Origin: an uncultured Bacilli bacterium
GTDB lineage: Bacteria > Bacillota_I > Bacilli_A > RF39 > UBA660
Length of the DNA stretch: 64,000 bases
NCBI GenBank assembly: GCA_944332505.1
Contig: CALVKC010000001.1
Coordinates: 186,001 to 250,000, forward strand
Reading direction: 5' to 3'
The position numbers and the translations under genes are program-made. The notes below the pieces were generated by a model. That model was not told the origin of the DNA, did not search any database, and saw nothing but the letters and a program-made list of their open reading frames with translations. Shown here one piece after another: positions 2,873 to 62,353 of this stretch. The stretch's first letter is position 1. Each line of letters begins with the position of its first letter.

Positions 2873-2898
2873 GAAGACTAGGATATATCCTAGTCTTC
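2873..2898 (-). terminator. Hairpin terminator
   Basis: Perfect 26-bp palindrome (GAAGACTAGG...), followed on the minus strand by TATTTTTG. It contains the last codons of the YD-repeat gene that ends at 2890. Confidence 0.75.
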
Positions 2899-3216
2899 GT
2901 CTTCATATTCATAAAATTCTTCATAATCGTCACTGTTTTTAATGTGAATTAAATTACCATTCTTATCATACTCATATACAATTTCAAAATCTTTAGAATT
3001 ATATTGACTGATTATATGATTATTTTCATCATATTCATAATATTCTTCAAAATTATCAGTAACGTTTTTAAAATGAATTAAATTATTATTTTCATCATAT
3101 TCATAAATACATTCACAGCCATTAGGATTTTGATAATAAATTAAATTTCCTTTATCATCATATTTTTTAATATAGATAATTTCACCATCTTTATCTTTTG
3201 CAGTTCTTATTTTCAT
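2890..3216 (-). CDS. YD-repeat (RHS-like) small protein
   Basis: 108 aa made of tandem ~20-residue units of the form YEYDxNxNLIHxKN, the YD repeat seen in RHS and cell-wall proteins, ending in an acidic EDED. There is no signal peptide and no toxin domain. At least three other loci in this window carry the same repeat (5419-5856, 31947-32096, 43270-44394). Role unknown; YD repeats usually build beta-sheet shells or bind carbohydrate, but such short free-standing forms are not characterised. Confidence 0.75.
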   Translation of the reverse strand: MKIRTAKDKDGEIIYIKKYDDKGNLIYYQNPNGCECIYEYDENNNLIHFKNVTDNFEEYYEYDENNHIISQYNSKDFEIVYEYDKNGNLIHIKNSDDYEEFYEYEDED

Positions 3217-3238: not shown

Positions 3239-3946
3239 TTATTTGTTATCTACTTTGGCTGATTGTACTCCTTGTTGATTTTGATATTTTCCTTCATATG
3301 TCATTGAAGAATCACCTTCGATAGATTCATAATATAATTGTCCAATTTCCATACCTGGATATACTACGACAGGGTGTGTTACTGTAATTTCTAAAGTCCA
3401 TTTACCTTTAAATCCATTATCACCAAATCCTGCTGTTAAATGAACAACAATACCTAATCTTCCAGTAGTTGATCGTCCATCAATTTTAGGTACATAGCCA
3501 TAAGTTTCAGTATATTCCATAGTTTCACCTAAATATAATACTCCTGGTAATAAGATATGACCTTCTTCTGTAATTGTAAATTCTTCAGTTTCATTATCCT
3601 TTTTAGGATCTAAAGCATATTCTCTTAATACTTTATTTTTTATTTCTTCTTGTTTATCATATAATTTTTGTAAACGTTCATTTCTATCATTTAAAGATTC
3701 TTCATCTAATGATTTTTCATCTTTGAATTCGTTACAAATATCAAGATATTCCTTTTGAATATCTTCAGATCTTTCTCTGATTACTTTATTAATTTCTTCT
3801 GGTGATACTACTCCTTTAGTATAAACTTTCATAGTATTACCTAATCTAATATTGTATGAATTAGGATTAAGACGAGATTCATCGAAATCACTAATTACAA
3901 TATTTCCTTTTTTAATTTCTTCTTTAATTTTTAATCCTGATAGCAT
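3239..3946 (-). CDS. dcd: dCTP deaminase-like protein (Dcd/dUTPase fold)
   Basis: 235 aa. The C-terminal half carries the Dcd signature: GRSTTGRLGIVVHLTAG (residues 157-173) then GFKGKWTLEI (178-187). It includes the conserved Ser, Arg and, at residue 186, the glutamate expected to be catalytic. Dcd converts dCTP to dUTP in the cytoplasm. It is longer than bacterial Dcd (about 190 aa) because of a charged helical insertion at about residues 46-125. The trimeric dUTPase family shares the fold, but the LEI glutamate context favours the deaminase. It could feed dTMP synthesis or a uracil-containing genome. Confidence 0.8.
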   Translation of the reverse strand: MLSGLKIKEEIKKGNIVISDFDESRLNPNSYNIRLGNTMKVYTKGVVSPEEINKVIRERSEDIQKEYLDICNEFKDEKSLDEESLNDRNERLQKLYDKQEEIKNKVLREYALDPKKDNETEEFTITEEGHILLPGVLYLGETMEYTETYGYVPKIDGRSTTGRLGIVVHLTAGFGDNGFKGKWTLEITVTHPVVVYPGMEIGQLYYESIEGDSSMTYEGKYQNQQGVQSAKVDNK

Positions 3947-5375: not shown

Positions 5376-5446
5376 TTAAAAGTCAATAAAATAATAAAAA
5401 ATAAAAGATTAGGTTATCCTAATCTTCATATTCATATTTTTCATAT
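5376..5446. repeat. Direct repeat copy 1 flanking a YD gene
   Basis: 71 bp almost identical to 5881-5954 (the second copy has 3 extra bases in the hairpin loop). It spans an A/T spacer, the terminator hairpin and the last codons of the YD gene. Confidence 0.85.
5405..5426 (-). terminator. Hairpin terminator
   Basis: AAGATTAGG stem with TTA loop, minus-strand T-rich tail; overlaps the end of the YD gene at 5419. Confidence 0.7.
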
Positions 5447-5856
5447 CCTCCATCAGAATCTTCATAATAAATTTTATTTCCTTTATCATACTCCCATTTT
5501 TTCCACAACCCATTAGAATCTTCTTTATAGATTAAACGCTTTTTATCATCATATTCATATTTTTTCCAATATCCATCAGAATCTTCAAAATAAATTAATT
5601 TTCCGTTATCATCATATTTCATTTTTTCCCAATATCCATTAGAATCTTCGCTATAAATTAAATTTCCTTTATCATCATATTTAAATTTATACCATTCACC
5701 TGTACAATATTCTTTATAGATTAAACGTCCTTTATCATCATACTTCCATTTTAACCAATCTCCATTAGGTTTTTCCTGATAAATTTTATTTCCTTTTTCG
5801 TCAAATTCTTCAATTTTTATTATATTATCATTTCTATCTTTAGTAATTTTTTTCAT
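5419..5856 (-). CDS. YD-repeat (RHS-like) protein
   Basis: 145 aa with about six tandem units of the form KYDDKGxLIYxEDSNGxWxK, ending in KYEYED. Ribosome site AGGGAG before the ATG at 5856. The gene is bracketed by 71-74 bp direct repeats, so it could have arisen, or be lost, by recombination between them. Same family as 2890-3216 but with Trp-containing units. Function unknown. Confidence 0.75.
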   Translation of the reverse strand: MKKITKDRNDNIIKIEEFDEKGNKIYQEKPNGDWLKWKYDDKGRLIYKEYCTGEWYKFKYDDKGNLIYSEDSNGYWEKMKYDDNGKLIYFEDSDGYWKKYEYDDKKRLIYKEDSNGLWKKWEYDKGNKIYYEDSDGGYEKYEYED

Positions 5857-6495: not shown

Positions 6496-6520
6496 TAGAC
6501 TAGAGATACACTCTAGTCTA
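6496..6520 (-). terminator. Hairpin terminator of the polyprotein-like gene
   Basis: TAGACTAGAG stem, 5-nt loop, minus-strand tail TTTTTTG; overlaps the stop region of the gene ending at 6518. Confidence 0.75.
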
Positions 6521-9500
6521 TTTAATTAAATATTTTAACGCTTCCCATCCAAATTTTAAAGTATTCTTATCAATCTGAATAATAGCATCATTAAAAGGCG
6601 ATCTTTCATAATATTCTGTAAAATTAAAAGTTTTATCATTAGCAACTACAATCTTTAAATATTTCTTAAAATCATTTAAAAATCTAGCTCTTACTTTTAA
6701 TTCTTTTACAGATTTATCTTTACCTTGTTTATATATTTTCTTTTCTAATAAAGTAATAAAGAATTGCATTTTAGCTAATTCAAATTTCATAGGATCATAT
6801 GATTCTTGTTTATCATATTCCATTAATAATCTATGAGAATTTGTATACTCTTGTTCAAAATCAATTCTTTTTATATTTTTTAATAATAAATTTCCATCTT
6901 TATCAAATTGAATAGGGAATGATTTAGCTTCTTCTATATAAGTATTAGATTCTAAAACCATCATTATCATTTTTTCAGTTTCAGATTCTTTTTTAAATCC
7001 AGTAGATTTATATATATTATATGCTACTTGATTATTTTTATTTACTGATAATTTTGTTACTTTAAAATCTTTGATGGCAGTATTTAGTAATTGTTTAGAT
7101 AAACCATGATTTTGATATTCTTTGGATATTTCTAATGCTTGAATCCATATACCATCATCTTTCTTTTCTGTATTTAAGATAGCAACTACGTTATCATTTT
7201 TATCTAAATAAATATATCCATTTGTATTTTTATTAATTCTTACATGTTTTAAAATTGTATATTTTTTAGATAATGATTCTTCTATTTTTAATTTTTTAAA
7301 CGATGATAAATTTAATCTATTAAGATTTGAATGATCAGAATCAATTTTTGAATTTATTTTTGTTTCTAGTATAATATTACTATCATATTCTACAAATTCA
7401 TATACAGGTAATCTACTTCTTTTTAACTTTTCAATTTTCTTCTTTATTATAGAAGGATTAAAATCTTTAGGGTTTCCTTTAAAGACTTCTACAATTTTAA
7501 CATCGTTTTTTACTTTATTTGTGAAATCTTTAGGTGATACAAACATACTCTTTTTATTAGTTAAATCTAAAGATGCAGATTTTAATAATTTATCTACAAA
7601 TTCAGAACAAACTAATTTCATATCCATATCTAATGGAATATTTAAAGGGATAGTTAATAAATTAAGTATAGAATATTTAGTCTTATTTATAAACAAATTA
7701 AAATTATCTAATGTTTTTTCTAATTGTTTATAAACTGAATCTGTTACTAAAAATGTATAAACTCCAACCTTATCTACTCCGTCTTTTGTATATTGTTTCA
7801 TTGATTCATATGATAATCCATTAAATCCATTTTTCTTATTAAATGAATATATGCGTGATATATCATCATCTAATGATATTGATGCATGAGAAAATTCATT
7901 TCCTTGTACTTTCTTAATAGTTTTACCTAACCAAGAATTACCTGAAACTAATACGATACTTACAGCTTTTTTATTAATATCTGTAGTATTAGATTCATTC
8001 ATTGAAACAGGTACAGTTCCTAAATATTCTCCACAATCTTTACATTTAAAGATTGGCTCTCCTTGAATAAAGACTCCTATATTTGTAGAACCACATTTAG
8101 TACATTTTTCTGGTTTTACTATTTTAGATTCTTTTATAGATTTATCTTTATTTCTTTCAAGATACATATAATAATAATCTTTACTTTTTCTATCAGATGA
8201 TTCTTTAAATCCATAATTTTTATACATTTTATAAGCTATCTCATTATCTTTATATACAGCTAATGCTCCAGCTTTATATTTATTTACGGCAATATCTAAA
8301 ATTTGTTTTCCTAATCCATATCCTCTATACTTATTAGAAACTTCTAGACTACCAAACCATCTATATCCATCAGAGGCAGGGATACTATCAACAGTTACTT
8401 TACCTACAACTTTATCATTGTCATCTTTCCAAAATAAATTATATGATTCTCCATCATCATTATTTTTAGTTTTAGAAAATTTAAAATCTGAAAGTCTTTT
8501 TTGCCCGTTTTGTTTATGATTTTTATCTAGATAAGATTTATCACTAGATTCTTCTATATAAGATTCTTTAATAGATTTTTTCAATTCATCTAAATCTTTA
8601 TCAGATCTAATTAGCCAAGATAAATCATCTTTTGAATATTTTAAAAATGTTTTATAATCCCATTTTTCACGTTTAACAGATTTTTGATAAAAAGATTTTA
8701 GTACAGAAGTACCTTTAATTATTAAAGGGTAATTTCTAGCTTTATCTTTAAATAATTCATAAATTTGAATACCTTCTATAATAAATTTTTTATCCTTATT
8801 ATTTTTAGCATAATTAATACAGAAATTTAAAAATGATGGTTGAAATTCTCCTTCAAAAGGATCTTTATAAAGATCTTTTAATTCTTCAGATGATAATGTA
8901 TTCATCCATTTTTGTAATATATATGGTCTATTATTTTTTATTACATCACTTATACAATCTAACTCTATATATTCTGCTTTATATTTTTTAGATAATTGTT
9001 TACCTAATGTACTCTTACCTGAGCCAGATAATCCTGTAATCAAAAGGATATTTGATTTTCCAGATTCAAAATCATCAAATTTCCAATATAAATCATTCTT
9101 ATTTAATATCATAGATTCTTCTATATAAGATTCATTAATCATACTATAATAATTATAACCATTTTTTGAGTTGGTTAAATTTAATCCTAATATTTTAGCT
9201 AAATTATTAGAACTTTTATTAGATATTTTAGCTTGCCAGATTAAACCATCTATATCTTTATTTGTTTTAAAATATGATAAAGCATCACTTGCTAATTTAT
9301 TACCTAAACCTTTATTTCTATATTTTGGAGATACAGCTAATGCAATATATCCAATACATTTTTTATATTCTTTATCATCTTTTGATCGTAGTAAAACAAA
9401 TCCTACTGGTTTATTACCATCATATTCAATTTTATAATATTTTACATTTACAAGTTCTATATTTTCAAAGCTGTCATCATCTTTATTTAGTGAATTAATT

Positions 9501-10549
9501 ACCTTATGTATATCTTCTGAATCTTTTTTTGGTATTTTAATATACTTTGTATCATTAAATAATTCATTATAAGCTTTTATTGAATAAGTCATAGCATCCA
9601 TTTTATCTCTTACTAATTTAGATGCTTTAGCTCTATTTTCAGAATTAAATTCAATTTCAGGAATCCATCCACATTGAACAATTGCATCATTGTTGTTTTC
9701 ATAAATAGCTTTTCTAAGAATATTAATTCTATCTAGATTATACTTATTATATTCAGGAATTTTAATACCGTGTCCTAATAATGAATAAGCCTCTCTCCAG
9801 CTTTTAATTTTTTCACCATCTTCTTTAGAAAAACAATCATAGTTTTCTTCCACTTTATTTTCAAAATCTTCAGGTGTTAGTATAGGTAAATCATTTGAAT
9901 ATAGTGATGATTCTTTATCTTCTGTTTTATATATATTTTCATCTTTTACAGTATGAGTTCCTTTTATCTCATCATTTTTAGTACTTATTAAATTATCCTG
10001 AATAAATTTATAAATATCCCTATTTGGTTTCCCAAATAATTCATGAGCTTTATTATCAGAAGATGCTCTAGCATTTACATCTAATGCCATATATTTCATA
10101 TATAAAGATTCTAATTCATTTCTATCTTGTGTTGGATATATAATAACTCTTCCTGTTGTATGAGTATTAAATTCTATTGCAGAATTAATTTTTTCATCTA
10201 ATTCTTTAGAATCTTTACATCCAAATTCTTTTGGAAGATTATAGATATCGTATTCTTCTTTAACAATACCATCATGTGGGTTATATTCTAATCCATCAAT
10301 TTCATCATCTTTGGTACCTTTTTTAATTTTAGATAATAAAGTATAATAATGATCATAATTATTCATTCCATATAATGCAAAACTTCTAATATCAGATTTT
10401 CTTTTCTGATCATCATTTTGAGCATTAAATTTTTGGAAATCATCATCTAATTTTTCTTTATCTTTAGATGGTTTAATCATAAAAAATCCATCTGTATTTG
10501 ATTCTAATTCTAATTTTAAATCATTACAAAGTTCATTTATATTTATCAT
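6518..10549 (-). CDS. Multidomain protein: three GNAT domains, P-loop kinase, zinc ribbon, papain-like domain
   Basis: 1343 aa. In order: an unknown N-terminal region (1-330); a GNAT acetyltransferase around 345-455 (YRNKGLG); a P-loop kinase-like domain around 495-650 (GLSGSGKST); a second GNAT around 680-800 (RGYGLG); a CxxC...CxxC zinc ribbon near 820-845; a permuted NlpC/P60 or LRAT-like domain 865-1000 (SHASIS histidine, VCSEFV cysteine); a third GNAT about 1090-1200; and a helical C-terminus. Recurrent linkers (ESYIEES twice, KIEES, TYIEEAK) separate domains. I read this as a polyprotein or virion-packaged cargo, perhaps cut at the linkers by the phage prohead protease; that is inference. 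One uninterrupted frame, no sign of frameshift. Confidence 0.75.
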   Translation of the reverse strand: MININELCNDLKLELESNTDGFFMIKPSKDKEKLDDDFQKFNAQNDDQKRKSDIRSFALYGMNNYDHYYTLLSKIKKGTKDDEIDGLEYNPHDGIVKEEYDIYNLPKEFGCKDSKELDEKINSAIEFNTHTTGRVIIYPTQDRNELESLYMKYMALDVNARASSDNKAHELFGKPNRDIYKFIQDNLISTKNDEIKGTHTVKDENIYKTEDKESSLYSNDLPILTPEDFENKVEENYDCFSKEDGEKIKSWREAYSLLGHGIKIPEYNKYNLDRINILRKAIYENNNDAIVQCGWIPEIEFNSENRAKASKLVRDKMDAMTYSIKAYNELFNDTKYIKIPKKDSEDIHKVINSLNKDDDSFENIELVNVKYYKIEYDGNKPVGFVLLRSKDDKEYKKCIGYIALAVSPKYRNKGLGNKLASDALSYFKTNKDIDGLIWQAKISNKSSNNLAKILGLNLTNSKNGYNYYSMINESYIEESMILNKNDLYWKFDDFESGKSNILLITGLSGSGKSTLGKQLSKKYKAEYIELDCISDVIKNNRPYILQKWMNTLSSEELKDLYKDPFEGEFQPSFLNFCINYAKNNKDKKFIIEGIQIYELFKDKARNYPLIIKGTSVLKSFYQKSVKREKWDYKTFLKYSKDDLSWLIRSDKDLDELKKSIKESYIEESSDKSYLDKNHKQNGQKRLSDFKFSKTKNNDDGESYNLFWKDDNDKVVGKVTVDSIPASDGYRWFGSLEVSNKYRGYGLGKQILDIAVNKYKAGALAVYKDNEIAYKMYKNYGFKESSDRKSKDYYYMYLERNKDKSIKESKIVKPEKCTKCGSTNIGVFIQGEPIFKCKDCGEYLGTVPVSMNESNTTDINKKAVSIVLVSGNSWLGKTIKKVQGNEFSHASISLDDDISRIYSFNKKNGFNGLSYESMKQYTKDGVDKVGVYTFLVTDSVYKQLEKTLDNFNLFINKTKYSILNLLTIPLNIPLDMDMKLVCSEFVDKLLKSASLDLTNKKSMFVSPKDFTNKVKNDVKIVEVFKGNPKDFNPSIIKKKIEKLKRSRLPVYEFVEYDSNIILETKINSKIDSDHSNLNRLNLSSFKKLKIEESLSKKYTILKHVRINKNTNGYIYLDKNDNVVAILNTEKKDDGIWIQALEISKEYQNHGLSKQLLNTAIKDFKVTKLSVNKNNQVAYNIYKSTGFKKESETEKMIMMVLESNTYIEEAKSFPIQFDKDGNLLLKNIKRIDFEQEYTNSHRLLMEYDKQESYDPMKFELAKMQFFITLLEKKIYKQGKDKSVKELKVRARFLNDFKKYLKIVVANDKTFNFTEYYERSPFNDAIIQIDKNTLKFGWEALKYLIK

Positions 10550-15361: not shown

Positions 15362-15667
15362 ATGTCCGTTATAACTTTTACAAAAGAGTCTTGTAAAAAT
15401 ATTGACACGATGAATAAAACATTAGTAGAACATTTTGAAGAACACTTTGCTATGTATAGTCTCTCTACTATTAAAAAATTTCCTAAAGTAGAAGTTGTAA
15501 ACAATGGTAAATTGTGTTATATTATTAAATGTAATAAAAAAGAATCTGTTGATATTATCGACGTATTATCATCATTTCAATGTAGTAATTTCGGTAATAC
15601 TCTGATTCCAGTATTTAATTTAATAGATGAAGGATTACTAGTAGAATTTAAATTAGCTGGAGAGTGA
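15362..15667 (+). CDS. Hypothetical protein, 101 aa
   Basis: AAAGGGGG site before the ATG. Mixed alpha/beta, no motif recognised. It lies between the baseplate genes and the RNAP gene, in the same transcription direction. Confidence 0.7.
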   Translation: MSVITFTKESCKNIDTMNKTLVEHFEEHFAMYSLSTIKKFPKVEVVNNGKLCYIIKCNKKESVDIIDVLSSFQCSNFGNTLIPVFNLIDEGLLVEFKLAGE

Positions 15668-15732
15668 TAATTCACTCTCCATTTTTTTATATAAATGACA
15701 TTTATATATTTAGTAGAAAGGAGGAATTTAAA

Positions 15733-17759
15733 ATGCCTATAGAAAGACATTTTAAAATAGACCCTTTAAATCCTTTATTATTGATAAAAGCTAATGATTT
15801 AAAGGAGATACAAAACCCAATAGCATTTGCTAAAAATAATATCCCAACAACTGATGGTTTATTATCTAATGAAATATTTGGAATTACAAAATTTGATAGG
15901 TCTAATACCTATGCTTATATAGGATTAGGTGATTGGTTTATGCATCCATTACATTATAGAATATGGTCAAAAATGGATTCTAATATTAAAGCAATTGTTC
16001 ATGAAACAGATACTTTTAAAATTAATTCAGCAGGAGAACTTGTTAGTGATCCTGATGGTGATACAGGTATCAAATGGCTAAAAAAGAATATAGATAAAAT
16101 AAAAATAAAATCTACAACGTCTATGAAAAGAGATAAAAATATTCAATTTTTAAATAATCATAGAGATACAATGTTTATAAATAATTTTATTATTATACCA
16201 GCATATTATCGTGATGCTAATACTACTAATGGTAGACCTGGATTAAGCGAAATTAATAAATTATATCAATCATTAATTATTGCTGTTAGATCGCTAAAAG
16301 AAAATGCAGAATATGGATTCACATTATCAGGAGCTACTAGAGGAAGAATCCAAGAACAATTACTTACTATTTATGAATGGTTTTCAGGATCTCAAAGTTA
16401 TGATTTTAAAAATGCCGTAGGTATTCCTAGTAAATTTGGTGTCATGAATAGATCAAATTTAAATAAAACTACAGACTACGCTGCACGTTTAGTATTATCA
16501 GCACCTGAATTAAAAGTTGAAAAAATGGAAGATATGCTTGTAGATTTAGATCATAGCGCAGTTCCACTAGCAGCAGTATGTACAGCATTTATGCCTTTTA
16601 TTCAATTTCAAATAAGAAGATTCTTTGAAAATGAATTTTCTGGTATTAATAGATATCCTTATAAAACTAAAAAAGGAGAAACTGAATATATCGAGATCGA
16701 AGATTATCAAGTATTATTTTCAGATGATATAATTAAAAATGAATTAGAATTATTCCAGCATGGATATGCAGATAGATTTAGACCTATTAAAATTCCTAAC
16801 AAAGAAGGAAAAGATATTTATATGCATTTTAAAGGATATAATGTAAAAAATGAAGATTTTGATATTAATAATCCTGGAAATATGCCTATTATAGAAAGAC
16901 CATTGACATGGTTAGATATAATATATCAAGCAGCAGTAGAAGTTGTTAAAGATAAACATATCTTAATAACTAGATATCCGATGAACTAAAACGTCGCATA
17001 ATTCAGTAATGAATTAATGAAAACTCTTCTAATTGCTGGAAAACCCTAAAGCCTCAATGCCTATTTTAATAGGAATCGAAAGATAGAAACAAGTTTGAGG
17101 ATGGTCTACGGTTAAATCCTAAGGATCGAAACAATGGGCAATCAGCAGCTAAAAATAATTATATAATATGTGATAATAAATATAATTATTAAAGTTCAAC
17201 GACTAGTAGAAATACTTAGGACCCAAGCGGGCACCGAAATGGAGAGCTGCCAAATATATAATATAATAAATATTTGGTAGAAGATATAGTCTAGTATCCT
17301 ATCGAAAGATAGGGAAGTTCATAAGAGAACTGCATAGTGTAGCGAACTATGTGAATGCAACGAGACAGTTACTTTAACCAATTTCCTACAAAAGTTAATA
17401 TATCTAGCACTAAAAAAACAGAGCCTATGGTTATAAATAATAAATTATACAGACATTATCCAAAAATAAGACAAGAAGATATTGGAACTAATACAGCTAA
17501 TTTATTTGTTGAAACAATGAATATTTGTAATTGTTATTTAGGAGCAATTGGCGGGGATTATGATGGAGACCAGGTTACAGTTAAAGGAGTATGGACTGTT
17601 GAAGCTAATGAAGAATTAGATAAAGCATTAAATTCTAAAAAACAGTATATTGGATTAACTGGAAAAAATGTTCGTACTGGTAGTAATGAAGCAATACAAG
17701 CATTATATAGTTTAACTTTATTACTTGATGATAGTAAACATGAAAAACCTGTATTTTGA
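15733..17759 (+). CDS. RNA polymerase beta' subunit, N-terminal part; interrupted by a group I intron
   Basis: Exons 15733-16982 and 17363-17759 join to a 548-aa protein. The chosen junction reads RYPIDSYFNQFPTK across the splice site. GGDYDGDQV is the catalytic NADFDGD-type loop that holds the active-site magnesium; TDGLLSNEIFG near residue 45 matches the N-terminal clamp of beta'. Start at 15733 follows AGGAGG; the longer frame from 15664 has no ribosome site. Giant phages split beta' after this loop; the remaining part would be a separate protein such as 54579-56750. Lying with baseplate genes, it could be the virion-packaged polymerase, but this is not proven. Confidence 0.9.
16983..17362 (+). 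ncRNA. Group I intron in the RNAP beta' gene
   Basis: 380 nt with no open frame inside. The R element GTTCAACGACTAG (17193-17205) and S element AGATATAGTCT (17282-17292) are classic group I core strings; GGGCAATCAGCAGC fits the P/Q side. 5' exon end CCGAU pairs with intron GUCG just downstream (P1 with U-G wobble), and the intron ends in G. The 3' domain (GAAGTTCATAAGAGAACTG) is shared with the intron at 24316-24800. No homing endonuclease is encoded. Confidence 0.92.
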
Positions 17760-28543: not shown

Positions 28544-30298
28544 TTATTCCACCATATATTTATTAAATGCTGGATCTGGTAATAAGAATTGATTAGATGT
28601 GTACATCAAAGTTACAATTTTAGAAATAGTAGAAAGAATAACTTTATCAGATTCTATAGATGTTAATACTTTACCATCACATTTATTTGTTCTAATATTG
28701 TATGCACAATCGTTACTATCAATAATTTCAAAAATATTATCAATTTCATCTTTTGAATATCCTGAAACTTCATATAAAGTTCCTAATAGATTAACGTATG
28801 CATTTGCAATGATTTCGATACATTTTTCTTTTAATGTAGGATCTTTACAATTTTCATCCCCTTCAGAATCACATAAAACACTTTTTACTCCATTTTTCCA
28901 TTGATAATTTAATAGATTTTGAGATGCTTTGTATCCTTCATAATTTGAACCATTTCCTACACCGTAAGCACAAGCAGATCTTAATGATTTAACAGCATCT
29001 TCTACTAAATCTCTTACAGAGTCTCTATCTGCTACTGATACACCACCAATTAAGAATTCTACCATATTAGCTTTCAATGCATTAATACGTCTTTTTAATC
29101 TTCCTGTCACAGCTACAGATTCATTATTTTCATATGCCATTTTTAATTCAGCTTCTAATGCTTTAATTAAATTATTAAATTCATCTGTATATTCTTCAGT
29201 TCCAGGTTTATACATATAAGCAGGTCTAATAAATTTAGTACTTGTTGCATCTGCTACAATTAATTCAGTTGTTCCTGCAAATGACGTAATATTTTCCATA
29301 GTAGGAGCTTTTCCATTTTCAATATCAATCTTTTGAAGTTCTGGATCAATATATCTATTGATAGGTTTAGCCCCTGTTAAATGAATAAGATCTTCATATA
29401 CATCTTCATTAAAAATATTTGTAATAATTAATAATGGGAATTTATATTGATGCATTTGCATAATAATTTCATTCATTGTTTGTGCTAAATCCGATGAAAT
29501 TTTTGGAGCCATAATTACTGTATTAACACAATTAGATACCTGTCCAGTTGCATTGATAGGATCAACGATATTCTGCTTAATAATAGCATTTAATAAGTTA
29601 ACCATATCTGGAGTATCTACTGGATCTCTAAAGATATAAATATGAGGTTCTGGTAATTCAGCTGTACCTTTAGCTTGATTTGTAATCATTACAGGATCTA
29701 AATATCCAGCTTTTAATGTTGTACCATTGTAGTATTTAATTTTTGTATTTTCATCATTAGAGATACCTACATCAATAAATACATCATTACCAAATTCTTT
29801 ATAAATATCATATAAATATTGAGCAATTTCTGTATTATTATTTGTAGATGTCAAAGCAATATTATAAATATCATCTAATGAAACTTCTTTATTATCTTTT
29901 TTAGAAATTTCATCAATAATATCACTAACAGCTTCTTTAAAAGCTTTAATAATAGCAGATGGATGTGCTTCTAATTCTGATTCTACTAATTTATCAAAAA
30001 TAATAGATGATAGAATGATAGCTGATGTTGTACCATCTCCAACAGTTTTTACAATATGAGTTGTAAGTTCTATTAATTCTTGTACTACTGTTCCTTCAAT
30101 TATTCCAGTGAATTTAATATTACTTAAAACAGTATGACCATCTTTAGTAGTATTAGAAAATTCAGTAGGAGATTTTTTAATCATAGTTGTACTTCCATTA
30201 GGACCAAAAGTATTTACTAATGAATCCTTTATCACATGTAATGTATCTTGCTGAACTTTTCTTAGTTCTTCACCTTTAACAATATTTGTTCCTAGCAT
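28544..30298 (-). CDS. groEL: GroEL-type chaperonin (phage-encoded)
   Basis: 584 aa, a full group I chaperonin: GPNGSTTMI (32-40), TKDGHTVLSNI (51-61) and GDGTTSAII (87-95), with Asp 88 in the place of the ATPase aspartate of GroEL. Equatorial-intermediate-apical-intermediate-equatorial order is complete; the tail lacks GGM repeats and ends DPAFNKYMVE. Some insertions in the apical part make it longer than bacterial GroEL (about 545 aa). Probably folds capsid or other virion proteins; no GroES gene is seen beside it. No early-type promoter. Confidence 0.92.
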   Translation of the reverse strand: MLGTNIVKGEELRKVQQDTLHVIKDSLVNTFGPNGSTTMIKKSPTEFSNTTKDGHTVLSNIKFTGIIEGTVVQELIELTTHIVKTVGDGTTSAIILSSIIFDKLVESELEAHPSAIIKAFKEAVSDIIDEISKKDNKEVSLDDIYNIALTSTNNNTEIAQYLYDIYKEFGNDVFIDVGISNDENTKIKYYNGTTLKAGYLDPVMITNQAKGTAELPEPHIYIFRDPVDTPDMVNLLNAIIKQNIVDPINATGQVSNCVNTVIMAPKISSDLAQTMNEIIMQMHQYKFPLLIITNIFNEDVYEDLIHLTGAKPINRYIDPELQKIDIENGKAPTMENITSFAGTTELIVADATSTKFIRPAYMYKPGTEEYTDEFNNLIKALEAELKMAYENNESVAVTGRLKRRINALKANMVEFLIGGVSVADRDSVRDLVEDAVKSLRSACAYGVGNGSNYEGYKASQNLLNYQWKNGVKSVLCDSEGDENCKDPTLKEKCIEIIANAYVNLLGTLYEVSGYSKDEIDNIFEIIDSNDCAYNIRTNKCDGKVLTSIESDKVILSTISKIVTLMYTSNQFLLPDPAFNKYMVE

Positions 30299-39684: not shown

Positions 39685-39763
39685 ATGCTACTCCTCCTTC
39701 TTAAAATTAATAATAAGTTAATGCTTTTAAATATGCAGTAACATTATTAGACAAACAAAAAAT

Positions 39764-39783
39764 AAAAGACTAATTAGTCTTTT
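39764..39783. terminator. Palindromic terminator at the far end of the repeat array
   Basis: AAAAGACTAATTAGTCTTTT with A/T tails on both sides, so it can stop transcription from either direction; on the minus strand it ends the Tas-array unit (TTTTATTTTTTG). Confidence 0.7.
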
Positions 39784-39802
39784 ATTTTGACTTTTACAAG
39801 CA

Positions 39803-40738
39803 ATGATTAAATTATCTGTCTTGAATCTTTAATCTATAGTAATTAAATTTAATACTCTGAATCTTTTACTTACCTTAATTGAATTTTTAAACATGAATCT
39901 TTTCTAGCACCTAATTAAATTTATTTATATGAATCTTTAACCTAACCATAATTAAATTTATGTGCATGAATCTTTTTTAGATAATGATTAAATTGATAAT
40001 TATGAATCTTTTCCACATATTAATTAAATTAATTGGGATGAATCTTTTATTTTGTATGATTAAACTTGGAAATCATGAATCTTTACTTTTTTTCTGATTA
40101 AATTTTCATCTTCATGAATCTTTTATACAAAATAATTAAAATACAGCTTTTGAATCTTTTTGTGATACATGATTAAATTTAAGTATATGAATCTTTTTTC
40201 CAAAATAATTAAATTAACGGTTTTGAATCTTTTTATAGTTATATGATTATATTAACTTCTTATGAATCTTTTACACCTATTGATTTAATAAATCAGAATA
40301 AATCTTATATAATTATTAATTAAATTACATTATTTGAATCTTTTATTTTATATGATTAAACTTAGAAACTATGAATCTTTTCGACTTTGTAATTAAATTG
40401 TATGAAATGAATCTTTTATTCTCTGTGATTAAATTTCCACAATATGAATCTTTTATGAACGATAATTAAATTTTTTTCTGAATCTTTTCTATCAACTAAT
40501 TAAATTGTACGAGATGAATCTTTTTATCAATCTAATTAAATTTATACACATGAATCTTTTCTATATAATAATTAAATTATTGTCAATGAATCTTTTATGA
40601 ACGATAATTAAATTTTTTTTCTGAATCTTTTCTATATAATAATTAAATTTATATATATAAATCTTTTATTTTCGATGAATAAGTTCGAATTAATGAATCT
40701 TTTTCTATATTTAATTAAATTGAACGTTTTGAATAAAT
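39803..40738 (-). repeat. TIGR-like guide array: about 25 units, period 36 bp
   Basis: No gene. On the plus strand every unit reads TGAATCTTTT - 9-11 variable bases - RATTAAATT - 8-10 variable bases. Box 1 begins at 39822, 39858, 39894, 39930, 39967, 40003, 40039, 40076, 40115, 40151, 40188, 40224, 40263, 40299, 40335, 40372, 40408, 40445, 40479, 40515, 40551, 40587, 40622, 40658, 40694 (steps 34-39, mostly 36), with half-units at both ends. Two short boxes plus two ~9-nt variable segments per 36 bp is the plan of tandem interspaced guide RNA arrays (dual-guide tigRNAs of ~36 nt), not of CRISPR. Variable segments are mostly unique. Strand set to match the neighbouring Tas gene; actual transcription direction is inferred. 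Confidence 0.85.
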
Positions 40739-40767
40739 TATGCAGTTGGAATTTATCCAACTGCATA
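40739..40767 (-). terminator. Hairpin between Tas gene and array, stop codon in loop
   Basis: TATGCAGTTGGA inverted repeat with the TAA stop of the Tas gene in the loop. On the minus strand it is followed by AATTTATTC, a poor T-run, so read-through into the array or use as an RNA processing site is plausible. Confidence 0.65.
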
Positions 40768-41850
40768 AAAATCTACTTCTGGTTTAATATAGTCTTTATG
40801 ACCTAGATGTGTAAATACATAAAATGGTGCTGGAACAGAGTTATTATGTACTCTATACATTTCTTCAAAAAGATGAGAAATGAAAATTTTACATGCCCAT
40901 CTTTTTGCACGTCTATCAATATGTGCTTTAGGTAATTTACCAACACTATAAGCTTTATAAGCATCAGTATCTTTACCAATATTTTTAGTAGCAAGAATTC
41001 TTTCAGCTTGATCTTTGTAATGAAGTTTTTCATTTAATTCAGTTTCAAGAGCTTTACGCTGTTTATATAATTCACCATATAAAGATCCTCTATTTGCAAC
41101 TTTTACAAAAGATTCCTCAATCTTAAACATAATAACTTTAAGATTCTTATTATAAGGAATTTTAGATATAGCTTTAATCAATTCAGATTTAGATCTTGAT
41201 TTTAATTTTCCTTCAGAATCATATTTAGAACAAGAGTCATTTAAATATTTATAACTCCATTTAGTTCTAATAGATAATTGTTCTAGATGATCATCAGTAA
41301 TAGTTTTAGAATCTCCTAATACTTCTTCTACAATTTTTCTAGAAGCTTCAGCTCCTAACCAAGGTCTATTATTATCATTTAATCCTGCATAAGAGATAAA
41401 ATGAGTAGCATATTCAATACCTTCCACATCAAAATATGCTAATAATGCAGATGCTAATGTAGGACCGATACCTTTAATTTGTAATAACCATCTTCCTACT
41501 TCACTAGTTTGTGCAACACAATTTAAAGCATCTTTTAATCCTTTTTCTTGGATCATTTGAGTTTTTAATTGCCATTCTAGAATATCAGCAAATGCATTAG
41601 TAGACAATTCATCAGCCTCTTGTCTAATAGATCTGATTTGTCCTTGTAATGCAATACGTTTTTCTTGGATCTGATAGAAGTTATCAACTAATGCTTTAAT
41701 TTCTTGACGTGATGCATTAGTTACAGATTTAATTTCTTTCTTTAAATCTTTTCCAAGATTTTCTGGAATTAGAAGTTCTACTTCTCCTTCTAATAAATCC
41801 ACGTCTAAATTTTCATTTAGAGTTTTTGCTTTTTCTTTTGTTTTTGTCAT
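40753..41850 (-). CDS. tasA: Tas-like protein (Nop / IS110-C-terminal-like domain), no nuclease domain
   Basis: 365 aa. Residues ~35-110 are helical and coiled-coil prone. Residues 122-160 (LLQIKGIGPTLASALLAYFD, then HFISYAGLNDNNRP) match the GIGP helix-hairpin region shared by Nop domains of box C/D snoRNP proteins and the transposase-20 domain of IS110. The C-terminus has RRAKRWACKIFISHLFEEMY. There is no DEDD/RuvC N-terminus as in IS110, no HNH and no RuvC. With the adjacent 36-bp array this fits a TasA-type RNA-guided DNA-binding protein of TIGR-Tas. Early-type promoter at 41923 and a leader hairpin at 41861. Confidence 0.8.
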   Translation of the reverse strand: MTKTKEKAKTLNENLDVDLLEGEVELLIPENLGKDLKKEIKSVTNASRQEIKALVDNFYQIQEKRIALQGQIRSIRQEADELSTNAFADILEWQLKTQMIQEKGLKDALNCVAQTSEVGRWLLQIKGIGPTLASALLAYFDVEGIEYATHFISYAGLNDNNRPWLGAEASRKIVEEVLGDSKTITDDHLEQLSIRTKWSYKYLNDSCSKYDSEGKLKSRSKSELIKAISKIPYNKNLKVIMFKIEESFVKVANRGSLYGELYKQRKALETELNEKLHYKDQAERILATKNIGKDTDAYKAYSVGKLPKAHIDRRAKRWACKIFISHLFEEMYRVHNNSVPAPFYVFTHLGHKDYIKPEVDFYAVG

Positions 41851-41860
41851 GATTAAATTC

Positions 41861-43269: not shown

Positions 43270-44394
43270 TTAAACAATCTGAAACCAATAATCTTTACGA
43301 TCGATAATATTATCTTTAATTTTAATAATAAATATAGAAATTAAATTATATTCAAAGTTTTTAATAATTTTAATAGCTAAACCATTATTAAGTTTTACAT
43401 ATCTATTAGCTTTAGTATAATCTACTTCAGCAATTTCACTAATCTCTTTTCGTGATGTATTAATACATTCTTTATACGAACCATCATCAAATTGCTTAAT
43501 GAATGTTGTATATGTTTTATAAGTACCATCTTTTTTACGTACTGTCAATATATCTTTATCATCAATATTTACAGGTTTAGCAATTAAAGAAAATAATTTA
43601 TGAGGTATACCTATCTTTATTATATTTTCCATTAATTTAATAGCAGCTTCATTTGTATATAAATACATTTGACTATTTTCATAATCTCCAATATAATCAT
43701 TGATATTGAAGAATCCGTTTTTAGTATAGAATTTATCTAATTTATAGAATAATGCATTACGTTCTTCTGAAGTAGCATTTTCAAATTCTTCTTTAGTGTA
43801 TTCATCTTTTGAAAATCCTGCTTGGGCAAAGAATAATTTATCATCTCCTATATTTTCTTTAATATAATTCTGTAATAATTCACTACCTATGCCTTTATTT
43901 CTAAATTCTTTAGGAATAAAAATTGCATTGCAATATGATATGCTATCAAAAATATCATCACACCATCCATATGCATCTTGAACCCAAAAAGGCTCACTTT
44001 TTAAATCAAAATCTTTGTCTTTAAAATTAATTACCTTTGTAGTTAGCTTTGTAGCTAGTTCTAAATTTTCTTTATTCATTTTTTGTCCTCCTCTATTATT
44101 ATTTAAATATCCATTAGATGTTTCACAGTAAATTTCATTACCATTTTCATCATATGTATATTTTTCCCAATATACGTTACCTTTATTATCAGGAACTAAT
44201 TCTAAAATTTCAGTAGATTCCATATAAATTAAACGACCATTTTCATCATATTTATATGAAGTATAAGTTTCATTATAAATATCTTCTTTATAGACTAAAT
44301 GACCATCTTTATCATATTTATATCTATAATTTTCATTATAAGTTTTATAATGAATTAAATGACCATTCTCATCATATTTTACTATTTTATCCAT
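43270..44394 (-). CDS. YD-repeat region fused in frame to a GNAT domain
   Basis: 374 aa from ATG 44394. Residues ~1-100 are YD units (KYDENGHLIHYKTYNEN, KYDENGRLIYMEST); residues ~106-374 hold a GNAT acetyltransferase (FIPKEFRNKGIGSELLQNYI). At 44079 an in-frame ATG (MNKENLEL) follows GAGGAGG by 7 nt, the best ribosome site of the region, so the GNAT part may also be made alone. Other YD proteins here end in YED and a stop at this point, so this looks like a loss of the stop between two former genes. Confidence 0.7.
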   Translation of the reverse strand: MDKIVKYDENGHLIHYKTYNENYRYKYDKDGHLVYKEDIYNETYTSYKYDENGRLIYMESTEILELVPDNKGNVYWEKYTYDENGNEIYCETSNGYLNNNRGGQKMNKENLELATKLTTKVINFKDKDFDLKSEPFWVQDAYGWCDDIFDSISYCNAIFIPKEFRNKGIGSELLQNYIKENIGDDKLFFAQAGFSKDEYTKEEFENATSEERNALFYKLDKFYTKNGFFNINDYIGDYENSQMYLYTNEAAIKLMENIIKIGIPHKLFSLIAKPVNIDDKDILTVRKKDGTYKTYTTFIKQFDDGSYKECINTSRKEISEIAEVDYTKANRYVKLNNGLAIKIIKNFEYNLISIFIIKIKDNIIDRKDYWFQIV

Positions 44395-44737
44395 CTCCAT
44401 TTTCCTCTTCTATTATAAAATGAATATGCTTAGTAAGATATTCAGTATAAATTTTTATTAAGAATCTATCAATTTTTATTAATTGTTTAGAATCTTCTAA
44501 TCTTATTTTTAATACATAATTATCTAATCCTACTAAAGACATAACCGTATTAATAGTTATTGTATATTTTGGTAAATTTTCTGACAATACAAATATAACA
44601 GTTCTGCCTTTTATCTCTATAGATTTTATATAATATTCATCTCCATTTTTTATAACTGAAATTTCATCAGTATATATATTTAAAGAATTTAAAGTGTTAA
44701 TATTTTCTATTTCTTTTTTAAATTCTAAAAATTTCAT
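44387..44737 (-). CDS. Hypothetical protein, 116 aa
   Basis: AAGGAG site; no motif recognised. Stop overlaps the start of the YD-GNAT gene, so they are coupled. Promoter at 44767. Confidence 0.65.
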   Translation of the reverse strand: MKFLEFKKEIENINTLNSLNIYTDEISVIKNGDEYYIKSIEIKGRTVIFVLSENLPKYTITINTVMSLVGLDNYVLKIRLEDSKQLIKIDRFLIKIYTEYLTKHIHFIIEEENGDG

Positions 44738-56802: not shown

Positions 56803-57489
56803 TTATAATGATATATATGACAATATAGATTTTTGTATTGATTCTATTGAATATACTTCTCCTATTTCATTATTAATTTTATAAGTAAATATTGGTCCTA
56901 AGTTTTTATGTATAATATTTTTATTTTTATTATGATCAATAAATTTTATATTATCATAAATTAAACGTTGGAATTCAATATTTTCATTTTGATCTCTTTT
57001 ATTATCATCATTATTATATCTTTTATTTAATAATTTATCTGAGACTTCTGGATCAGCATAAAATATTATAGTTAAATCAGGTACCGGTAATTTTAATGCT
57101 TCGTTTTCTACAATACCCATAAAATCAATATATAATAATTTATCTTCTTTGGTTTCAAAATTTTGAATTTCATATAAAGTATTAGATATAGTATATCTAT
57201 CCATAATAATAATATAACCATCTTCATATTTATCTTTTAATTCTCTTATATAAGATATTCCTCTATCTAAAGAATAAAATAATGAAGAAATATATGGATT
57301 TTTTATATCATTAAATTCCCCATTCAATAGTTTTTTAACAAAATATGATGAATCACTATCATAATTAGGAAAAGAAAATAAACATACTTTATCAGTATAT
57401 TTTTTAAAATTTTCAAATAATAATTTAGCTTGTGTGTTTTTTCCTGTTCCGTCCATTCCATCAATTACGATTATTTTTCCTTTGTTCAT
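56803..57489 (-). CDS. tmk: Thymidylate kinase
   Basis: 228 aa. P-loop DGMDGTGKNTQ (10-20), then IIIMDRYTISNTLY with the DR motif, and a lid-like KRYNNDDNKRDQNENIEF. Phosphorylates dTMP (or dUMP) to the diphosphate. AAGGAGG site. Fits the dCTP deaminase and FolD genes as a pyrimidine set. Confidence 0.85.
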   Translation of the reverse strand: MNKGKIIVIDGMDGTGKNTQAKLLFENFKKYTDKVCLFSFPNYDSDSSYFVKKLLNGEFNDIKNPYISSLFYSLDRGISYIRELKDKYEDGYIIIMDRYTISNTLYEIQNFETKEDKLLYIDFMGIVENEALKLPVPDLTIIFYADPEVSDKLLNKRYNNDDNKRDQNENIEFQRLIYDNIKFIDHNKNKNIIHKNLGPIFTYKINNEIGEVYSIESIQKSILSYISL

Positions 57490-61378: not shown

Positions 61379-62353
61379 TTAATCTCCATTTTTAAATTCA
61401 CATTCGTATTCTTTATCAAAACCATTTATACAAGCTTCAGAAATTTGTAAATTATTGCAATAATGCCATATAAAATCAAATTGATTTTTGTAAGCAATAT
61501 AAATATTATCAATTAATTCAGCTACTGTCATAGGACCTACTCCACCTGGTACTGGTGTATATTGCCATTTGATTCTATCGCAATATAGTTCTGAATTTTT
61601 TACAAATTCTTTACTTAGATCACCACATAATTTTCCTTGTTTATTTCTACTAATTCCAGCATCAATAATAATTAAATCTTTAGAACCATAGAAATATCTA
61701 TCTGTAAAATATTCTGGTAGACCTGTTGCTAAAACTACAATATCGCTATTACCAGTAAATTCTTCTAACGATTTAGTTTTAGAATGACATAATGTAACAG
61801 TAGCATTTTTTTCTTGTAATAATTGTGCTACGGGTTTTCCTACAATATTACTTCTTCCTACAACTGTTACTTTTTTACCTTCTAAATCTGTAACAGATTC
61901 TAATAATCTAATAATTCCTTTTGCAGTACAAGGTAATAATCTTCTTTCTTCTTTCATTCCTAATTGAAGCATTCCTGCTTGAGTTTTTGTAAATCCATCC
62001 ACATCTTTTTTAGGATCAATAGCTTCTATAACATTTTTTTCATTTATATGCTTAGGTAATGGTAATTGTACTAAAATACCTGTAACAGTAGGCGTCAGTG
62101 ATAATTTTTCAATCACTTCTATTAATTTTTCCTCAGGTACTTCTTCCTTATAATGGTAATGACTAAATTTAATTCCAACTTCTTCACATGCTTTTTTCTT
62201 ATTTCTAATATAAACTTCTGAAGCAGGATCATCTCCTACTTGAATTACTACTAAATGTGGTTTAGTGATAGATTTAAATCTATCATCTTGTAATTTTTCT
62301 TTTACTTCTTCTCTTACTTGTTTAGCTAATGCTTTACCATCAATTATCTTCAT
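61379..62353 (-). CDS. folD: FolD: methylenetetrahydrofolate dehydrogenase/cyclohydrolase
   Basis: 324 aa. Full FolD: active-site Tyr 48 and Lys 52 in VYIRNKKKAC, VDGFTKTQAG, PCTAKG, nucleotide-binding VGRSNIVGKPVA, IIDAGISRN, and PVPGGVGPMTVAEL. It interconverts 5,10-methylene- and 10-formyl-THF using NADP, feeding one-carbon units for thymidylate or formyl-Met. A ~35-residue tail beyond the bacterial length. It is rare in phages. Overlaps the Cys-rich gene by 14 bp. Confidence 0.92.
   Translation of the reverse strand: MKIIDGKALAKQVREEVKEKLQDDRFKSITKPHLVVIQVGDDPASEVYIRNKKKACEEVGIKFSHYHYKEEVPEEKLIEVIEKLSLTPTVTGILVQLPLPKHINEKNVIEAIDPKKDVDGFTKTQAGMLQLGMKEERRLLPCTAKGIIRLLESVTDLEGKKVTVVGRSNIVGKPVAQLLQEKNATVTLCHSKTKSLEEFTGNSDIVVLATGLPEYFTDRYFYGSKDLIIIDAGISRNKQGKLCGDLSKEFVKNSELYCDRIKWQYTPVPGGVGPMTVAELIDNIYIAYKNQFDFIWHYCNNLQISEACINGFDKEYECEFKNGD

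Follow-up and report, generated by a model that had tools for sequence, protein, structure and literature searches.

Architecture of the locus

The window analysed here is a 64 kb stretch (64,000 nucleotides) of contig CALVKC010000001.1, filed under an uncultured Bacilli bacterium and, by its gene content, DNA of a phiKZ-like phage. It carries on its minus strand the gene tasA, which encodes a protein with a Nop-like domain, and directly downstream of it on the same strand an array of two alternating short repeats. We read the two together as a TIGR-TasA system, in which a protein that lacks a nuclease would be guided by short RNAs. The features of the locus are as follows.

39759 to 39788, minus strand: A/U-rich hairpin, likely an intrinsic terminator (-11.4 kcal/mol, z -4.9)
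39791 to 40739, minus strand: TIGR array of 26 units, each made of edge repeat AAAAGATTCA, spacer A, loop repeat AATTTAATYA and spacer B
39791 to 39826, minus strand: predicted tigRNA 26, 36 nt, whose last bases are the 3'-truncated edge repeat AAAAG
40340 to 40376, minus strand: unit 11, likely a diverged duplicate of unit 19 (40044 to 40080), with similar spacers
40450 to 40483, minus strand: unit 8, a near copy of unit 4 (40592 to 40626) in both spacers
40699 to 40734, minus strand: predicted tigRNA 1, 36 nt, with the cut placed midway in the edge repeat, following what is published on other TIGR arrays (PMC12045711)
40730 to 40739, minus strand: first edge repeat, its 5' part degenerate and just ...ATTCA intact
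40738 to 40768, minus strand: 13-bp hairpin that spans the tasA stop codon, just ahead of the array (-19.7 kcal/mol, z -7.8), terminator-like in the terminator scan
40753 to 41850, minus strand: tasA, 365 aa, with a Nop-like domain that has a GIGP motif and no nuclease domain

Both repeats are 10 nt long. The edge repeat is exact in 20 of its 25 internal copies and the loop repeat in 19 of 26, and the two are alike at their ends, starting with AA and ending with TCA or TYA. Spacer A has 8 nt in 19 of the 26 units and spacer B in 22, and the predicted processed RNAs are 36 nt long in 17 units and 34 to 39 nt in the others. An earlier, sequence-only reading had placed two conserved, alternating boxes here with a unit length of 36, and our parsing agrees with it on both points; its 25 units become 26, and its variable segments of 9 and 8 nt were measured as mostly 8 and 8 nt. 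The pattern AAAAGATTCA-N8-AATTTAAT, with up to 3 mismatches, matches 27 times in the window, 21 of these inside the array. Dinucleotide shuffles of the window gave a mean of 3.4 and a maximum of 9 matches, and none of 100 reached 27. The loop variant AGTTTAATCA is rare and is confined to units 11 and 19 of the array. The unit pairs 4/8 and 11/19 each score 13 (mean best score 10.7 and maximum 13 in 300 column shuffles), which is suggestive of diverged copies.

It is quite improbable that the locus is a decaying, non-working TIGR-TasA system. Degenerate repeats in units 2, 12/13 and 14 and some spacers of 6 to 10 nt would fit such decay, but the tasA reading frame is intact, a 99% identical TasA protein (P0001) is encoded on another contig, and most repeats are exact, as counted above. 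The array also differs from CRISPR-Cas, in which repeats of 25-36 nt alternate with spacers of similar size beside cas genes, since its repeats are only 10 nt long and no Cas match was found for TasA and the neighbouring open reading frames (ORFs) searched, the other ORFs of the window being covered in part. PADLOC reported no system.

The guide strand is likely the minus strand. This is the strand of tasA; read on it, the array starts with an edge repeat reduced to ATTCA, ends with the 3'-truncated AAAAG and is directly followed by a hairpin; and in the relatives inspected the arrays lie on the tas strand, where their repeats mostly end in CCA, TCA or TTA. Faure et al. (PMC12045711) describe TIGR arrays as having a truncated edge repeat at each end and a terminator behind them. 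The terminator scan omits the hairpin at 39759-39788, which is mostly A-U, because it requires three G-C pairs. Candidate roles of the hairpin at 40738-40768 are those of an attenuator, a processing signal or an mRNA end. The promoter scan of the window did no better than chance. An exact loop repeat, AATTTAATCA, overlaps the tasA start codon (41850-41859, minus strand); the window has six copies of AATTTAATYA beyond the array, this one included. By inspection, no similar copy is obvious at the tas start in 21 relatives, and its position could reflect chance or self-regulation.

Identity of the TasA protein

The NCBIfam model TIGR_Tas_endo (NF052498) matches the 365-aa protein with 139.9 bits, above the cut-off of 100. 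The best matches of the predicted structure are the solved TasH and TasR, a result that answers the structure prediction proposed in the sequence-only reading. The N-terminus of the model has low confidence up to about residue 30, residues 48-114 form long, coiled-coil-like helices, and the structural alignment with TasR begins at model residue 47 and TasR residue 111. No HNH or RuvC family is among the TasA matches in Pfam (E <= 10), PHROGs or NCBIfam (E <= 1). We therefore call the protein TasA, since it is too short to hold a RuvC domain and matches no nuclease. The sequence-only reading had proposed a nuclease-less protein of this size on the minus strand beside the array, and ORF 40753-41850 bears out its position, size and lack of a nuclease. 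Its assignment to TIGR-Tas is likewise upheld by the family model, the nearest folds and the grammar of the array.

The array has the arrangement that defines TIGR-Tas loci. Such loci have alternating repeats of 8 to 12 nt with two spacers of about 9 nt beside a tas gene, and the window has 10-nt repeats and mostly 8-nt spacers. The first edge repeat is 5'-truncated, the last is 3'-truncated and a terminator follows, here the mostly A-U hairpin. Both repeats have the same box D at the start and the same box C at the end.

The closest known systems include TIGR-TasR (PDB 9mty) and TIGR-TasH (9vzx, 9w02-9w04, 21kl), from which the window TasA differs in having no RuvC or HNH part. TasR repeats have the form UG...CCA, whereas those of the window start with AA and end with TCA or TYA. 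The system described for Flavonifractor plautii (FpTIGR, a TIGR-TasA system; Faure et al. 2025, PMC12045711) is similar in that one locus holds both a Nop-domain protein lacking a nuclease and a dual-repeat array. According to the main text of that report, its TasA binds 36-nt RNAs with a total variable length of 18 nt. Set beside FpTIGR by description, the window system differs in its mostly 8 + 8 nt spacers, its phiKZ-like phage and its AT-rich repeats. The Nop family also includes box C/D snoRNP proteins and Prp31, which are among the closest known systems.

An IS110 RNA-guided transposase with an N-terminal DEDD domain was considered and rejected, as the NCBIfam IS110 model gave 30 bits against a cut-off of 140 and the Pfam match to IS110-type proteins (Transposase_20) is limited to the C-terminal part. 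Unlike the IS110/IS621 bridge-RNA recombinases, the window protein has no N-terminal catalytic domain, and no single bridge RNA was seen. The Transposase_20 match, a match to a PHROG named transposase and the tandem, intergenic nature of this phage array could also be explained if the box pairs were iterons or partition sites of a DNA-binding protein, next to an unrelated IS110-like remnant. We consider this very improbable. The protein falls far below the IS110 cut-off, exceeds that of the TIGR-Tas model and lacks the N-terminal catalytic domain, and the variable segments of the array largely hold their length and not their sequence. Moreover, arrays recur beside tas genes in many relatives with other repeat sequences, and whole units turn over between close relatives, as described below.

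Phage context

The window has a G+C content of 25% and encodes phage-type RNA polymerase subunits, a divergent family B DNA polymerase, a head maturation protease, a major head protein and GroEL. These polymerase and capsid genes surround the locus, in line with the phage setting given by the sequence-only reading, and we take the gene set to be that of phiKZ-like giant phages. With 64 kb of the genome at hand, a giant phage is likely because of this gene set and because contigs with TasA relatives reach 303 kb. Four IMG/VR loci (L001, L003, L005 and L006) have several further genes in common with the window, and in the last three of these the neighbours of tasA differ from those in the window. 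Searches of INPHARED by tblastn with TasA and the major head protein found no homologues. A search of genome contigs with the TasA alignment gave 93 pattern matches, of which none was confirmed, and in IMG/VR no close relatives of the RNA polymerase subunit or the head protein were found.

Several other genes of the window deserve mention. A group I intron (Rfam, 82.7 bits; 16973-17314, plus strand) lies between ORFs 15664-16989 and 17355-17759, which resemble a pair of exons from one RNA polymerase subunit gene; in L005 the matches to these two ORFs are likewise about 300 bp apart. The window encodes a dCTP deaminase-like protein and a thymidylate kinase (3239-3946 and 56803-57489, minus strand), a pair that brings to mind phages with uracil-containing DNA. 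Short tandem-repeat proteins of the YDENG/YDDKG kind are encoded at 2890-3216, 5419-5856 and 43270-44400 (minus strand); the last has a weak RHS-repeat match slightly below the cut-off, and that at 5419-5856 has no Pfam match. A 1343-aa protein (6518-10549, minus strand) contains three stretches of the GNAT acetyltransferase type, and its P-loop match is weak and below the cut-off. A FolD-like folate enzyme and the GroEL-like chaperonin are encoded at 61379-62353 and 28544-30298 (minus strand).

TIGR loci in related contigs

Of 161 loci with tas relatives found in IMG/VR, 80 were kept. Among the eight nearest loci, a simple periodicity test found an array in five (L001, L004, L005, L006 and L008). 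A periodic consensus was obtained for 58 of the 80 loci, of which at least L045 and L047 are of another type and L029 is doubtful. We picked 38 loci by eye for parsing, which gave 711 units. With a parser that allowed spacers of 7 to 10 nt and favoured 8 nt, 1254 of 1429 spacers had 8 nt. By inspection, the edge and loop repeats mostly have the form RA....YCA in both, and L054 has CCG in both; L014, with ACA in one repeat and CCA in the other, is an exception. Such matching boxes fit a symmetric dimer that would read both repeats.

Array turnover among close relatives

In closely related loci, the arrays often diverge far more quickly than the genes that flank them. A spacer was counted as shared if it recurred in the same order with no more than one difference, and counts refer to the smaller array; we assigned the edge and loop labels of the relatives ourselves. 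L165 and L166, with 94.1% identical tas genes, have 2 of 25 spacers in common, L067 and L164 (95.8%) 6 of 35, L039 and L044 (96.9%) 17 of 49, and L021 and L027 (99.3%) 13 of 41. L023 and L026 (96.8%) have 20 of 33 spacers in common, L024 and L026 (95.3%) 25 of 33, and L023 and L024 19 of 33; L021 and L072 have 13 of 41 in common, and L025, cut off by the contig end within its array, has 10 or 11 of 19. Comparisons that draw on one group depend on each other. The flanking DNA that could be aligned is 84-98% identical in the changed pairs compared, with array ends placed by hand; for L165/L166 it covers just 1441 and 1149 of 2000 bases, and for L021/L027 the downstream comparison was limited to 251 bases. 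Among more distant arrays that were parsed with identical repeats, 13 of 13 pairs have 0 or 1 spacers in common. The loss of spacers is too great to be due to point mutation at this level of divergence.

Change also appears to proceed by units. In each of the 11 comparisons short of full identity, neighbouring spacers that are both shared fall more often inside one unit than across a unit boundary, with totals of 62 and 25, respectively. In five pairs (L039/L044, L067/L164, L021/L027, L165/L166 and L023/L026) the counts are 25 and 5. Therefore, the whole dual-spacer unit tends to be gained or lost, which supports the idea that the two spacers act as a pair. The same five pairs gave no clear trend towards a leader end: quartile counts, beginning with the tas-proximal quartile, were 10, 12, 17 and 19, a slight distal lean.

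Several points count against a general fast turnover. L027 and L072, with 96.0% identical tas genes, have all 53 spacers in common, and L021 and L022, 96% identical over the locus, have the same array, so turnover is not universal. In addition, it was measured in relatives outside the clade of the window, with TasA proteins 29-54% identical to that of the window over the best-matching segment. The tas gene and the array have different histories in L021, L027 and L072, as the most similar tas genes (L021/L027) accompany different arrays and the less similar ones (L027/L072) identical arrays, suggesting recombination.

Search for targets

The pair query consisted of spacer A, a gap of 0-2 and the reverse complement of spacer B. 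This geometry was derived from the published 8-nt 3' overhangs; since the cut site is worded in two ways (sections 7 and 8 of PMC12045711), the opposite geometry was searched as a control, and permuted spacer pairs served as a second control. The sequence-only reading had proposed such a paired search, and no target was found in the window, in the relatives (0.65 Mb) or, for unit 7, in IMG/VR. The results below count against the silencing role that we favour. The window itself has 0 exact and 4 one-mismatch matches, compared with 0 and 2-5 in six permutations, and 1 and 3 in the control orientation. A 0.71 Mb set (the window, six related contigs and two loci) was searched with 25 of the 26 pairs, unit 8 being too short, and gave 4 exact matches against a permuted mean of 0.4 and maximum of 1 (20 permutations). 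However, these represent two independent sites, one of them a low-complexity AT repeat: three are copies of a dispersed AT repeat in L109 and the fourth is in L111. One-mismatch matches in this set numbered 19 (permuted mean 14.4, maximum 26), and the control orientation gave 1 exact match (mean 0.3, maximum 3). The arrays of L001, L004, L005, L006 and L008 had no exact match in the same set in either orientation. Across the family, all parsed loci but L044 (37 of 38) supplied 686 distinct pairs, which had 4 exact and 116 one-mismatch matches in 1.64 Mb and the window; the control orientation gave 5 and 127, and three permutations gave 0, 2 and 3 exact and 133, 128 and 123 one-mismatch matches. 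Unit 7 alone matched 24 stretches in IMG/VR and 17 in the control orientation. There was no excess of units aimed at overlapping sites.

The AT repeat of L109 is intergenic, at least about 100 bp long and present in three copies around 11734, 13833 and 16124. It contains TATATATACTATATAA, an exact unit 3 match in the tested geometry.

Proposed mechanism and significance

We favour, with a probability of roughly 0.6, a TIGR-TasA system in which a TasA dimer, guided by about 26 predicted tigRNAs of roughly 36 nt, would bind DNA sites some 16 bp long without cutting them, likely silencing the genes or the replication of rival mobile elements or of the host. The array would be transcribed on the minus strand as far as the hairpin at 39759-39788, and an RNase, probably one of the host, would cut the transcript halfway through each edge repeat. 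In each tigRNA, spacers A and B would pair with opposite strands of the DNA. The site, bound and bent in the absence of a nuclease, would then be blocked for transcription or replication. The main text of Faure et al. (PMC12045711) describes Tas-bound 36-nt RNAs, spacers that pair with opposite strands, no need for a motif, and bending of the site. Our data directly support the gene, the array, the strand logic, the family membership, the predicted fold and rapid whole-unit turnover in distant relatives. Expression, processing, DNA binding and purpose of the window's system are inferred, and a silencing role is plausible.

The same parts might instead do an internal job, with guides aimed at the phage's own DNA for gene timing, packaging or replication control, or with TasA bending DNA as an accessory. 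The lack of a nuclease would suit such a job, gene regulation and aid to an integrase are raised as options in section 10 of PMC12045711, and tasA adjoins the prohead protease gene and is near the major head protein gene. However, spacer-pair matches are not in excess within the 64-kb window, which is part of the genome, tasA is placed elsewhere in related large phages, and array contents change quickly between close relatives, which is unexpected for a fixed set of targets. We regard an internal job as unlikely. Fast turnover of units favours a role in conflict, with rival mobile elements or variable host genes as opponents, over a fixed internal one, and, judged from distant relatives, points to an array of guides for a shifting conflict and not to a housekeeping element.

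TIGR-Tas systems were described in 2025, and natural targets, the role of nuclease-less TasA and array growth are given as open questions by the authors (PMC12045711, section 10). The words 'jumbo', 'giant', 'turnover' and 'acquisition' appear nowhere in the main text of that report. Besides it, the literature searched listed one TIGR-Tas review and papers that mention the system briefly or deal with jumbo phages. Strain collections of one phage may be a place to seek targets. Our study contributes a TasA locus with all its 26 units from a phage that is phiKZ-like and probably giant, and the comparison of close relatives bears on the question of array growth. A tentative view is that phage TIGR arrays are fast-changing arsenals in which whole units are swapped, gained and lost between viruses that are nearly identical, with no clear leader end and no known adaptation genes, so that a non-cutting TasA could be re-aimed at rival phages or host genes. 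Such turnover may be a lead about TIGR-Tas systems in general.
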